This document shows positions 21 to 40,585 of a stretch of DNA of 40,585 nucleotides, one piece after another (the first letter of the stretch is position 1; every line of letters begins with the position of its first letter). The DNA comes from Bacillota bacterium. Lineage in GTDB: Bacteria; Bacillota; Limnochordia; Darwinibacteriales; Darwinibacteriaceae. Location: positions 1-40,585 of the forward strand of contig JAAYMI010000096.1 of assembly GCA_012521465.1 (NCBI GenBank). The letters run 5' to 3'. The position numbers and the translations under genes were made by a program. The notes beneath the pieces were generated by a model. The model was not told where the DNA came from. It was given only the letters and a program-made list of their open reading frames with translations, and ran no database searches.

Positions 21-136
21 TATCTCAACTTTGAGCTAATCTCTAGCTATTTGCCTCTGTCTATGACATTGGCGCACAAACTTACTTGGCTGTGATTGAT
101 TCTGTTGTTTAGTTTTCAAGGTTCAAGGCCCAAATA

Positions 137-22934: not shown

Positions 22935-22992
22935 ATAAGTAGTTTCGAAATGAAAAAATCACCACTCCTTTTCCGCGCAAGATGGTTGATGA

Positions 22993-23175
22993 AATGCAGC
23001 TTGGCAGGTCTCCTGGCTCCCAACTCATCATGCTCTCATACCTTCCCCACAACCGTGAGTGGCATACCATGAGGCACTCATTGGATACAGTGGCGGGACC
23101 GCGTGGTTTCTCTGTTTCCAGAGCCCAACTTCCCTATTATCTGCTGGCTGTTCAGCAGCACCAAGCCGAGTATTG
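22993..23175 (-). promoter_or_regulatory. Cobalamin riboswitch (aptamer)
   Basis: On the minus strand the conserved order of a B12 aptamer is present: AATAGGGAA near 23130-23138, GGTCCCGCCACTG near 23090-23102, and the B12 box GCCAGGAGACCTGCC at 23004-23018. It lies upstream of the btuFCD operon with a terminator in between. Boundaries are approximate. I could not find a convincing promoter above it. Confidence 0.9.
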
Positions 23176-23264
23176 AGTTGTCATGTGATTCTTCGCCGCC
23201 AACCTGCAATTTCCTTCCGTGTTTTGGTGATAATAAACCGACACCAATAACAGGGGCGACTTGT

Positions 23265-31610: not shown

Positions 31611-31880
31611 AAACAAAAAACCCTCACCCCTATCGGGACGAGAGTCTTACTCACGCGGTACCACCCAACTTTGCCGTGCACGCACGGCCGCCTCCAGGTA
31701 CAGACAGCTATACCCTCGCACTGTAACGGGTGCTCCCCGGCAGGGCCTACTGCTAGTTCAGCCCGCAGCTCCTGGGCCATGTTCAGTAATGAGCATTTCG
31801 TCAGCTTTCACCTTACCTGACTCTCTGTTGGAAACGCCGTATTACCTACTCTTCCCACTCATCGCTTGTGCTTTTCTGAT
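31611..31880 (-). promoter_or_regulatory. Methionine T-box riboswitch of metG
   Basis: The antiterminator T-box GGGTGGTACCGCG is at 31654-31666. After it comes a terminator (CTCTCGTCCC/GGGGTGAGGG with GATA loop, 31621-31644) and a T-rich run (31611-31620). The Stem I region near 31780-31875 includes AGGTGAAAGCTGACG and a likely ATG specifier at 31794-31796 within GAAATGCTC. Uncharged tRNA-Met would promote read-through into metG. Stem boundaries are approximate. Confidence 0.9.
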
Positions 31881-33221: not shown

Positions 33222-34049
33222 ATGAACAGGATTCAACCGGTCAGCGCCTGGGACGCGGTGGTGGCGCTGCCCGAAACCAAGCGCTTCCCCAAACCCCGCA
33301 CAGAGGGAATTACAATGGTGATCGACAAAGGCCTTGGTCTCACAGAAACGCGAGAGCTGCTGGAGATGGCAGCAGATCACATGGATTTCCTCAAGATCGC
33401 TTTCGGGAGTTCGGCCCTCTATCCGACACGCCTGATGAAAGAAAAGCTTGCTCTGGTCAAGAGCTACGGCGTACACGTGTACCCCGGGGGCACACTATTT
33501 GAGATCGCATTCTACCAAGGCATGCTGAAGGAGTTTCTTACCCGCGCCCAAGAACTGGGCTTCACTTATGTGGAAATCTCGGAAGGCACCATCGATCTGC
33601 CCAGGCACCGCCGGGCTGAGTGCATCAAGATGGCCCGTGATTGGGGCTTTGGGGTTGTGTCGGAAATCGGGAAGAAGGACAAGTCGGTGAAAATCCAGCC
33701 CGCAGCAGCGGTAGAACAGATCCTCACAGATCTAGAAAACGGTTCAGAAAAGGTGATCATTGAGGGCCGTGACTCAGGTAAAGGAGTGGGAATCTACGAC
33801 GACCAGGGGGCGGTGAATGACAGTCTGCTCGATGAAATCCTAGCTGGTATTAAGTCAGCCAGCAAAATACTGATCGAGGCACCCCAAACAAGCCAGCAGA
33901 ACCACTTGCTGCTTAAGCTTGGGCCCAACGTCAATCTGGGGAATGTTCAGCCCCATGATGTGCTTACCCTAGAATCCACCCGTGTCGGACTGAGGGGTGA
34001 CACCCTCCGAGAGTTACTCAAAAACGCGCCGCGCTCGTATAGGTCGTAA
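33222..34049 (+). CDS. comA: Phosphosulfolactate synthase (ComA) family protein
   Basis: 275 residues. ComA condenses sulfite with phosphoenolpyruvate to phosphosulfolactate, the first step to coenzyme M in methanogens and to sulfolactate in some bacteria. Family blocks are clear: GITMVIDKGLGLTETRELLE (about 29-48), DFLKIAFGSSALYP (about 54-67), VYPGGTLFEIA (about 85-95), VEISEGTIDLP (about 115-125), VVSEIGKKD (about 145-153) and EGRDSGKGVGIYD. AGGAGGG precedes the ATG. No ComB phosphatase or ComC dehydrogenase is present nearby. The symbol reflects family membership; the substrate is inferred. Confidence 0.85.
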   Translation: MNRIQPVSAWDAVVALPETKRFPKPRTEGITMVIDKGLGLTETRELLEMAADHMDFLKIAFGSSALYPTRLMKEKLALVKSYGVHVYPGGTLFEIAFYQGMLKEFLTRAQELGFTYVEISEGTIDLPRHRRAECIKMARDWGFGVVSEIGKKDKSVKIQPAAAVEQILTDLENGSEKVIIEGRDSGKGVGIYDDQGAVNDSLLDEILAGIKSASKILIEAPQTSQQNHLLLKLGPNVNLGNVQPHDVLTLESTRVGLRGDTLRELLKNAPRSYRS

Positions 34050-37715: not shown

Positions 37716-38035
37716 ATCTTCTCAAACCTCTCCACATCTACCACAAAGACGATGGCACCACCTACGGTTACCTTGTCCATCTTCGGCATGATAGTACTTC
37801 CCAGAGTGGTCAGGGGATCAAGCTGATACTGCTCCCGCTTGCTGCTGACCCGCCCGATCAGCTCCAGTGCACTTTCCACCTTCTCATCATCGACACCAAT
37901 CAGCAAAGTGGTGTTGCCCGTGCGCAGGAATCCCCCTGTACTGGCAAGCTTTGTGGCGCTGAAGCCTTCCTTCATTAGAGTATCCAATAAGACAGGCACA
38001 TCCTGATCCTGAACTATTGTCACCAAGAGCTTCAC
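37712..38035 (-). CDS. darA: Cyclic di-AMP receptor DarA (YaaQ, PII-like)
   Basis: 107 residues. PII-like trimeric fold: KLLVTIVQDQDVPVLLDTL, FSATKLASTGGFLRTGNTTLLIGV (about 25-48) and the C-terminal VTVGGAIVFVVDVERF are the hallmarks of the c-di-AMP-binding YaaQ/DarA/PstA family. The GTG at 38035 follows GGGGAGG and overlaps the tmk stop (TAGTG); the longer frame lies inside tmk. c-di-AMP binding is inferred from family membership. Its downstream target is unknown also in model species. Confidence 0.93.
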   Translation of the reverse strand: MKLLVTIVQDQDVPVLLDTLMKEGFSATKLASTGGFLRTGNTTLLIGVDDEKVESALELIGRVSSKREQYQLDPLTTLGSTIMPKMDKVTVGGAIVFVVDVERFEKI

Positions 38036-38646
38036 TAGGCTAACCTCCCCGCCAATGACCTTTGTACCCGTTGGCTCACTTCCCACTCGGTTCCTTCAGC
38101 CGAAACCACAACAACACGCTGGGGATTCTGAGCAGCAATACTGAGAAATGCTGATCTGACCCGTTCGTGGTAGGCGAGATCCCGCTGTTCAATGCGATCT
38201 CCCCCTACCCGAGCCAAGACAGTCTGCGGCTCCGCATCAAGGCAGATTGTGAGATCAGGCTCTAGTCCCGCAGTGGCCAGCTTGTTTACGGCCACGATCA
38301 TGTCCACGGATAGATCCAAACCATAGCCTTGATACGCCACGGATGAATCAATATACCGCTCACACACCACAACCTTGCCCTCGGCCAGCGCCGGCCGAAT
38401 GACTTCCGCAACATGCTGGGCACGATCAGCGGCATACAGCAGTATCTCAGTCACAGGCTCAAGCTGGTGGTTTTCTGGGTCAAGGAGCAGCTTGCGAATC
38501 GCCTGACCTAGGCTGGTGCCGCCTGGCTCAAAGGTGTGCACAACATCATAACCCTGCTGTAGTAAGTATTCCACAAGAAGACGAGCTTGCGTTGTTTTGC
38601 CAACACCGTCAATTCCTTCTAGGGTTATGAACAGCCCATCTCCCAT
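38035..38646 (-). CDS. tmk: Thymidylate kinase
   Basis: 203 residues. Phosphorylates dTMP to dTDP. P-loop GIDGVGKTT (11-19), EPGGT (about 41-45, with Phe instead of the usual preceding Arg), CERYIDSSVAYQG (about 94-106) and a LID-type segment near GGDRIEQRDLAYHERVR. The ATG follows AAGGAG. It sits between the decarboxylase gene and darA and is coupled to darA by overlapping stop/start. Confidence 0.96.
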   Translation of the reverse strand: MGDGLFITLEGIDGVGKTTQARLLVEYLLQQGYDVVHTFEPGGTSLGQAIRKLLLDPENHQLEPVTEILLYAADRAQHVAEVIRPALAEGKVVVCERYIDSSVAYQGYGLDLSVDMIVAVNKLATAGLEPDLTICLDAEPQTVLARVGGDRIEQRDLAYHERVRSAFLSIAAQNPQRVVVVSAEGTEWEVSQRVQRSLAGRLA

Positions 38647-38677
38647 GACCAGAATACTCCTTCTCTAGTTTTCTTCA

Positions 38678-40105
38678 TCAAAGCGCATTGTCCTTTATTA
38701 CATATAATGCCACGCCTTCCATCCCGCGAATGGGCCAGCCCAGCCTAAGGCACCATTCGAGGTAGGCTGCTGTATCGCGGCTTACCACCTCACCAGGAAC
38801 CAATATGGGCACTCCGGGCGGGTAGGGTGTCACAAACTCGGCAGAGACGCGGCCGACTGCCTGCCTGAGAGACACCGCCTCCCAGGAACGGCGCACCGCC
38901 TTCCCCATGGGAAGAGCCTGATCTGGCAGGGGTGGATAGGACAAATCCGGCAGTCTCAGCTTCCGTCCGCCAAGGTGCCCTGCCCGCTCTACGACCCCCT
39001 CCACGGCGCGGCACAGCTGCTCGATGGTTTCTGGAGTATCGCCCAGCGTAACCAGGGCAATGACGTTGAAATAATCGCTCAACTCTACTTGTATATTATA
39101 ATCTCTGCGCAGTATTCCCTCAAGCTGGATGCCTGTTAAGCCCAACTCGCGTAAGGAAAAGACTATCTTCGTAGGATCATGCCTAAGCTGGCTGGGCAGA
39201 ACCTGCACGCCCGGAATTCTCTCCAACCTGGCACTGCAGCAGTGGGCGAGCTCCACTGCGCGTCCCACCAGTTCCGATCCCCTCTCATGCAGGCTGCGGC
39301 GCACTTCATCGATGACGGCAAGAAAAACCAGGGATGGGCTGGTGGTCTCCAGAATGCGCCGCGCGCGCCGCACTAGGTGATGCAGTTCATCAGACTGAAC
39401 GTGCAGCATGGAAGTCTGCGTTAAGGAGCCGAGGGTCTTGTGAGTGCTCTGCACTACCCCGTCGGCACCCGCTGCGAGGCCCGGATCAGGCAGGACGGGC
39501 GAAAAGCGAAAATGGCCGCCGTGTGCCTCATCTATAACGGCCAGAGCCCCCAACTGGTGAGTCTTGACTACAAGCTCCTCCAGCTCGGCACAAGTTCCGT
39601 AATATGTAGGGTGGGTAAACACCACAGCCGCAGGGCTGTGATCGGCTGCCGCTCGCTCTAACTCTGCGGCAGTGGGAGGCAGCGGAATCTGCCACTCTGG
39701 ATCAAACCTCACAGGTAGATATATGCACTCATTCCCAGCGAGCAGGGCCCCAGTGTACACTGCTTGGTGGGAAAAGCGGGGAATGACAAGCTTACCAGAC
39801 ACGGAGTAGAGCAGATAGTGCAGCCCCGAGGTTGTCCCGTTTACAAGAAACAAAGTATGGGCGGCACCAAATAACTGGGCCGCCAGCTGCTGGGCGGCCT
39901 CCAAAGCACGTTCAAAATCATGGTCCAATGCCAAGTCTTCTATTTCATCAGAAGGATCGAGTTGAAATATGCCCGACCCCAAATGTGCCTGCAGCCGAGG
40001 AAAAATCTCACCCCTCAGCTTGTGCCCAGGGGTGTGAAAAGGGATAACACCTCTCTGCCTATAGGCGCACAGTGCTTCCCACAAGGGCGCATTATCCTGA
40101 ATCAA
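38678..40105 (-). CDS. PLP-dependent Orn/Lys/Arg decarboxylase family protein (YaaO-like)
   Basis: 475 residues, fold type I PLP enzyme. Family marks: FHTPGHK (about 23-29), FLVNGTTSGLH (about 86-96), VIDEAHGGHFRFSP (about 190-203) and the PLP lysine in STHKTLGSLTQTSML (K at about 223). The C-terminal domain includes LLSYPPG-like TPYPPGVPILVPGE. B. subtilis has YaaO at the same place before tmk; whether this enzyme uses arginine, lysine or ornithine cannot be told. Start chosen at TTG 40105 (AGGTGG five bases before); GTG 40120 is possible. It overlaps the end of the gin gene. Confidence 0.9.
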   Translation of the reverse strand: MIQDNAPLWEALCAYRQRGVIPFHTPGHKLRGEIFPRLQAHLGSGIFQLDPSDEIEDLALDHDFERALEAAQQLAAQLFGAAHTLFLVNGTTSGLHYLLYSVSGKLVIPRFSHQAVYTGALLAGNECIYLPVRFDPEWQIPLPPTAAELERAAADHSPAAVVFTHPTYYGTCAELEELVVKTHQLGALAVIDEAHGGHFRFSPVLPDPGLAAGADGVVQSTHKTLGSLTQTSMLHVQSDELHHLVRRARRILETTSPSLVFLAVIDEVRRSLHERGSELVGRAVELAHCCSARLERIPGVQVLPSQLRHDPTKIVFSLRELGLTGIQLEGILRRDYNIQVELSDYFNVIALVTLGDTPETIEQLCRAVEGVVERAGHLGGRKLRLPDLSYPPLPDQALPMGKAVRRSWEAVSLRQAVGRVSAEFVTPYPPGVPILVPGEVVSRDTAAYLEWCLRLGWPIRGMEGVALYVIKDNAL

Positions 40106-40325
40106 GGCAACCACCTGCACTGCTGTCCATAATCAACTCGTCCCAAGGCCTGTCTCCTCGATAAGCTGCCCAGCAAGCACTGAGAGCATCGACGACTGCA
40201 TCGTAATCCTGGTGCTGGGGTTGGACCGAGACGATCAAGCGCTCACAATCGTGACAAAGCAAACATCCCAAAAGCGAGACAGCCTGTGCATCCGGCTGTG
40301 CTTGGCCGCAGACTAAGCACTTCAT
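40092..40325 (-). CDS. csfB: Sigma-G inhibitor Gin (CsfB) homologue
   Basis: 77 residues. KCLVCG (C3, C6) and CLLCHDCERLI (C21, C24, C27), followed by HQDYDAVVDALSACW, match the pattern of Gin, the zinc-binding anti-sigma factor that holds sigma-G inactive in the B. subtilis forespore. The place, upstream of the decarboxylase and tmk, is also that of csfB in B. subtilis. The ATG at 40325 follows GAGGTGAGGG. The C-terminal 25 residues are longer than in Bacillus. I saw no convincing forespore (sigma-F) promoter in the 70 bases upstream. Confidence 0.78.
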   Translation of the reverse strand: MKCLVCGQAQPDAQAVSLLGCLLCHDCERLIVSVQPQHQDYDAVVDALSACWAAYRGDRPWDELIMDSSAGGCLDSG

Positions 40326-40392
40326 ACCCTCACCTCGCTCCAGGATATTCTGATCACCCTTTCCACGTGTAGGTCCACAATTCCTGCACAGC

Positions 40393-40417
40393 AAAAACCA
40401 CCCCCAATCAGAGGTGG
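40393..40417 (-). terminator. Terminator after the ABC permease fragment
   Basis: CCACC (40398-40402) and GGTGG (40413-40417) form a stem followed on the minus strand by T5 (40393-40397). It lies 18 bases past the permease stop and before the gin gene. Confidence 0.65.
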
Positions 40418-40435
40418 CCTGCTGAAACAACGGGG

Positions 40436-40510
40436 CTAACCTTTCACTCCTGAGCTGAGCATCCCTTCCACGAAGTACCTCTGCATGAGGATGTAGACAG
40501 CGATCATCTG
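40436..40510 (-). pseudogene. Sugar ABC transporter permease, C-terminal end only
   Basis: Read on the minus strand, codons from 40507 to the stop at 40436-40438 give MIAVYILMQRYFVEG followed by MLSSGVKG, the standard end of MalG-type carbohydrate ABC permeases (last membrane helix, then a conserved tail ending VKG). Upstream of 40510 the frame no longer looks like a permease. The expected preceding part of such a protein is found on the opposite strand at 40511-40585. So the gene is broken here, either by a real inversion or by an assembly or amplification artefact. Confidence 0.75.
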
Positions 40511-40585
40511 TGGACAGCCACAATGGGTTTGATGCAGTTCAAGGGGAACTACGGCACCCAGTGGCACCTGCTCTTGACCGGCTCG
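40511..40585 (+). pseudogene. Sugar ABC transporter permease, internal fragment in inverted orientation
   Basis: The plus strand from 40511 to the window end reads WTATMGLMQFKGNYG then TQWHLLLTGS, the periplasmic loop and start of the last helix of MalG-type permeases. In an intact protein this would run directly into the helix and tail found on the minus strand at 40436-40510. The join is at a small inverted repeat, TGTGG-ACAG-CCACA (40509-40522). The frame is open to the end of the window. Confidence 0.65.

Follow-up and report, generated by a model that had tools for sequence, protein, structure and literature searches.

The right-hand end of the stretch of DNA analyzed here carries two pieces of one sugar permease gene on opposite strands, raising the question of whether the gene has been rearranged in the organism or whether the join is an error in the data. 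This stretch, the window, comprises 40,585 bases and is the whole of contig C122 (1-40585) from a genome of 2,520,831 bases in 213 contigs, which is 98.6% complete and 4.0% contaminated. Our analysis indicates that the oddity at the contig end is most likely a data error and not biology.

Both pieces were identified by comparison with the congener, the sole one among the relatives listed, of which contig L053 was used. As the original prediction had proposed, the minus strand carries the C-terminus of a MalG-type permease: positions 40436-40507 (-) agree with the C-terminus of the congener permease at 20 of 24 positions, the stop included. The authentic 3' end of the gene occupies 40436-40495 (-), with its stop at 40436-40438, and matches the C-terminus of L053:9336-10169. 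The further proposal that the plus strand carries the segment which should precede this end is likewise borne out, with 40496-40585 (+) encoding 30 residues, 29 of them identical to the congener. When the genome itself was searched with 40200-40585 as the query, two places were recovered, namely the window and C197:4-93 (-), the latter with 99% identity over 90 bases. Window 40496-40585 (+) and C197:4-93 in reverse orientation agree at 89 of 90 bases (E 1.3e-39), a match far beyond chance; the sole mismatch, at 40579, keeps the same amino acid, and base-by-base comparison shows that the agreement between the two contigs stops below 40496. The misplaced, inverted permease piece spans 40508-40585 (+), equals C197:4-81 (-) except for the one base at 40579, and measures 78 bases, or 90 with the arm shared by both pieces.

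The second contig, C197, is 6,741 bases long and, read on its minus strand, encodes a ROK-type regulator, a phosphodiester-glycosidase-like protein, a sugar-binding protein, permease 1 and permease 2, with a family-5 binding protein on the other strand at its opposite end. The frame of permease 2 is open to the contig end, and this open end is the very segment found at the window's end; on C197 it lies in normal order, with 250 codons read through. Permease 2 contains the PF00528 domain, and the NCBIfam models that fit it best, UgpE, GlcU and MalG, all score below their curated cut-offs. The congener's intact permease likewise falls short of the NCBIfam equivalog cut-offs (MalG, 105.7 bits against 261; UgpE, 134.8 against 297). 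Given that all equivalog matches lie below the cut-off, the name should go no further than UgpE/MalG-type; a family-1 binding protein and a partner permease adjoin the gene. With the permease as the query, the genome yields 55 matches at E values no higher than 0.001. For 2.5 Mb this is a large complement of related ABC permeases; the window's own end is one of the matches, and the remainder may include fragments or partner permeases.

The congener encodes an intact permease of 277 amino acids (L053:9336-10169, -) beside the same run of gin, decarboxylase and tmk genes that is found in the window. Window 38000-40391 aligns with L053:6938-9329, as far as the permease stop, and C197:17-5739 aligns with the congener from within the permease onwards. 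The intact congener permease beside this run thus implies that C197 and C122 are chromosomal neighbors, and the true order on the chromosome is sugar-binding protein, permease 1 and permease 2 (C197), followed by gin and the decarboxylase-tmk run (C122). Comparison with the congener shows about 5 codons between C197 and C122 that are absent from both contigs; the expectation that the two pieces would together make one continuous permease therefore does not hold, as these codons are missing between them. Of 21 further genomes in the family, 7 match part of 40420-40585, and none crosses the junction described below into both parts.

The gene for Gin, the sigma-G inhibitor (40092-40325, -; Pfam Gin PF10764, E 5.8e-9, 36.2 bits against a cut-off of 27), stands at the same place in the congener and is the true downstream neighbor of the permease. 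The open frame 38678-40132 (-) is an Orn/Lys/Arg decarboxylase-type gene (PF01276, E 4.3e-47) that lies within the collinear run, which continues with genes for thymidylate kinase, a cyclic-di-AMP receptor, a DUF327 protein, DNA polymerase III delta', PSP1 and a tetrapyrrole-methylase-type protein. The order of the genes on this side resembles that in Bacillus subtilis. A terminator scan of 40300-40585, allowing loops of 3-8 bases, returned nothing; by eye, a terminator-like element can be made out at 40398-40417 (-), just after the permease stop, with a 5-pair stem and a ten-base loop followed by five T. Elsewhere the window contains a T-box leader (31631-31871, -) and a cobalamin riboswitch (22986-23180, -), both well over the gathering score, as well as a ComA-type gene (phosphosulfolactate synthase, PF02679, E 1.1e-86) at 33222-34049, in a genome that otherwise looks like that of a spore-forming Bacillota.

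The switch from one piece to the other takes place in a zone of 12 bases, GACAGCGATCAT, at 40496-40507, which is an inverted match common to both pieces. In the sense of C197 this zone codes for Asp-Ser-Asp-His and on the minus strand of the window for Met-Ile-Ala-Val; the homologous residues in the congener are DSEH on one side and LIAV on the other (Leu-Ile-Ala-Val against Met-Ile-Ala-Val here). Since the zone fits permease coding in both senses, the join lies at a 12-base inverted match. The left arm of this match is present as a whole on C197, and on the C-terminal side at least 9 of the 12 arm bases, those coding for Ile-Ala-Val, are backed by homology. The authentic flank on that side is in neither contig, and we infer the exact bases of this arm in the real gene; the partner arm would lie about 96 bases away if the spacing of the congener holds. 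The original prediction had instead placed the join at the short inverted repeat TGTGG-ACAG-CCACA (40509-40522, +). This location is rejected: the repeat starts one base past the shared zone and lies wholly inside one piece, its 14 bases run unbroken within ordinary permease sequence on C197, and the window departs from C197 at 40496. The window has 45 repeats of this shape, with 5-base arms around a 4-base loop. Counted over 441,634 bases, inverted repeats whose arms reach at least 12 bases and whose spacers measure 40-160 bases number 4, or about 23 per genome; one lying within a gene is hence to be expected, and its presence in the permease needs no special cause.

These observations are best accounted for by a fold-back chimera, i.e. 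an inverted chimera that arose in amplification, library making or assembly, and we regard this origin of the contig end as very probable. Two segments of one locus are joined in opposite orientation, a short complementary match of 12 bases lies at the join, and both C197 and the congener show the normal order. The laboratory or assembly step behind the join would have run as follows. Permease 2 would contain two 12-base stretches, about 96 bases apart, which are reverse complements of each other; during amplification, end repair or assembly, a 3' end finishing at one arm could pair with the other arm and then be extended along the wrong strand. The expected product, consisting of the gene end, the arm and the loop segment in the opposite sense, is what C122 shows. 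Counting against a chimera are the fact that the join is known from the contig alone, with the inverted join having a weight in the data that is not negligible, since the assembler chose it, the isolated character of the case within this assembly, and the silent mismatch, which is of a kind that a real strain variant might give.

The other contig ends were surveyed for comparable cases. From 60 contigs 117 ends were sampled, of which 4 (on C34 and C39) are all N, leaving 113 readable ends of 58 contigs. Among these, tips sharing sequence in the same sense form two pairs, C122/C197 and C116/C4, and overlaps in the dovetail sense form five; of 72 tips (4 all N), not one shows a fold-back onto the contig it belongs to. 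Two further matches were set aside, one a direct repeat within the C17 end, the other a similarity away from the tips that links the starts of C122 and C28. The latter is a 50-base stretch, 94% alike, near both contig starts (window 75-124 and C28:20-67), and has no Rfam match at window 75-124. The pair formed by C116 (L113; 9145-9269) and C4 (L149; 1-126) shares 125 identical bases that lie past the stop codons of the flanking genes. The best congener matches of these genes are on different contigs (congener C2 and C1), which makes a dispersed repeat likelier than a fold-back, and we rejected the pair as a second example. The shared stretch has a hairpin-like core, as judged by eye, though only these two copies of it were found in the genome. 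The only clear fold-back among the 113 readable ends of the 58 contigs is therefore C122/C197, which suggests an isolated accident and not a recurrent trait of the assembly, and a systematic tendency to fold back is rejected. That the fold-back stands alone speaks mildly against heavy amplification of the sample.

The original prediction had left the choice between a real local inversion and a chimera. The window taken alone would allow a fixed inversion in this organism, yet such an inversion predicts inverted joins at both edges, whereas on C197 the left edge and the loop follow the normal arrangement. Both states cannot come from a single inverted molecule, and the uninverted edge on C197 contradicts a fixed inversion unless that contig comes from another strain; we consider it extremely improbable. 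Given this edge and the intact gene of the congener, the chimera is the better supported side of that choice. A real inverted duplication within the gene, arranged as loop, short spacer, reversed loop and gene end, with the assembly having broken at the palindrome between C197 and C122, would explain why both contigs end at most 3 bases apart in the shared segment and why the copies differ by one base. That single difference is silent, though, as expected of a coding sequence under selection; the congener lacks a duplication of this kind, and here it would disrupt the permease in an operon that is otherwise intact. All of this makes it a very unlikely history.

Intragenic segments that invert have also been considered, intragenic invertons having reportedly been described by Chanin et al. 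in 2024. Under such an explanation, the population would carry the loop of about 96 bases in either orientation between its 12-base arms, with the assembler having taken one orientation at each edge; both contigs indeed end within the loop, as a mixed population would give, and each loop edge is seen in one state only, on C122 and C197 respectively. The arms fall within the range of 10-40 bases given for inverton repeats in the account of PMC11892184, from which it also follows that repeat length alone is not decisive. In the congener the arms are spaced by a multiple of three, and no stop interrupts the 26 codons known for the inverted loop, so the reading frame would survive a flip; we roughly estimate the chance of such a coincidence at about 1 in ten. 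An inverton of this kind, in frame, would recode the stretch before the last helix of the permease with no frame shift and, if real, give two transporter variants in one population. Against this, the protein stretch that a flip would replace is well conserved among relatives. In the congener, the one genome compared, the arms at the corresponding codons match at 6 of 12 bases and are not complementary. Moreover, 15 bases at the arm, searched for genome-wide with at most one mismatch, occur at the window's end and on C197 and nowhere else, and thus give no sign of a shared recombinase site; a scan of 17 neighboring proteins encoded by C122 and C197 found no recombinase family. We therefore consider a real intragenic inverton very unlikely, and slightly less likely still in the form of a recoding, in-frame switch.

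With the fold-back chimera as the preferred reading, the locus is a sugar-transport operon of ordinary type that a contig break interrupts, and the window closes with a 12-base shared arm and a 78-base chimera. Annotation should skip bases 40508-40585, from which a spurious gene fragment on the plus strand and a spurious minus-strand frame of 49 amino acids would result, the latter with a weak match to the wrong family (Cys_rich_VLP, E 0.012, below the cut-off). The earlier suspicion of a fold-back artefact was sound; the stretch to distrust, given there as the last ~75 bases, needs correction to the 78 bases of 40508-40585, preceded by an ambiguous zone at 40496-40507. The significance of the case is limited to annotation; as a by-product, C197 and C122 can be ordered as neighbors.

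Several known systems offer points of comparison. Invertons, as described in the account of PMC11892184, would share with this locus short inverted repeats around a small intragenic segment and two edges in different states; unlike them, the repeat here is not kept in the congener and no recombinase family was found nearby, and the case is known from contigs alone. Other parallels come from artefacts of DNA handling. Star et al. (2014, PMC3946424) describe how extension of a single-strand hairpin during library making gives rise to interrupted palindromes; these were seen in reads of historic and ancient DNA, whereas ours is an assembled contig, but the form is alike, namely an interrupted palindrome from a single-strand hairpin in which the strand end is extended on itself. 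Among 475 chimeras obtained when a single E. coli cell was subjected to multiple displacement amplification (MDA), 406 were inverted and the junctions of most matched over 2-21 bases, so that inverted joins at short matches appear, in the account of Lasken and Stockwell (2007, PMC1855051), as the predominant form of chimera in amplified DNA. The chimeras of that account (PMC1855051) were reads of DNA known to have been amplified, while the present join is known from the contig alone; nevertheless, the join at the window's end has the same build as the inverted chimeras reported there, with nearby segments of one locus joined in inverted orientation at a short complementary match of the kind that in those chimeras ranges from a few to 21 bases.
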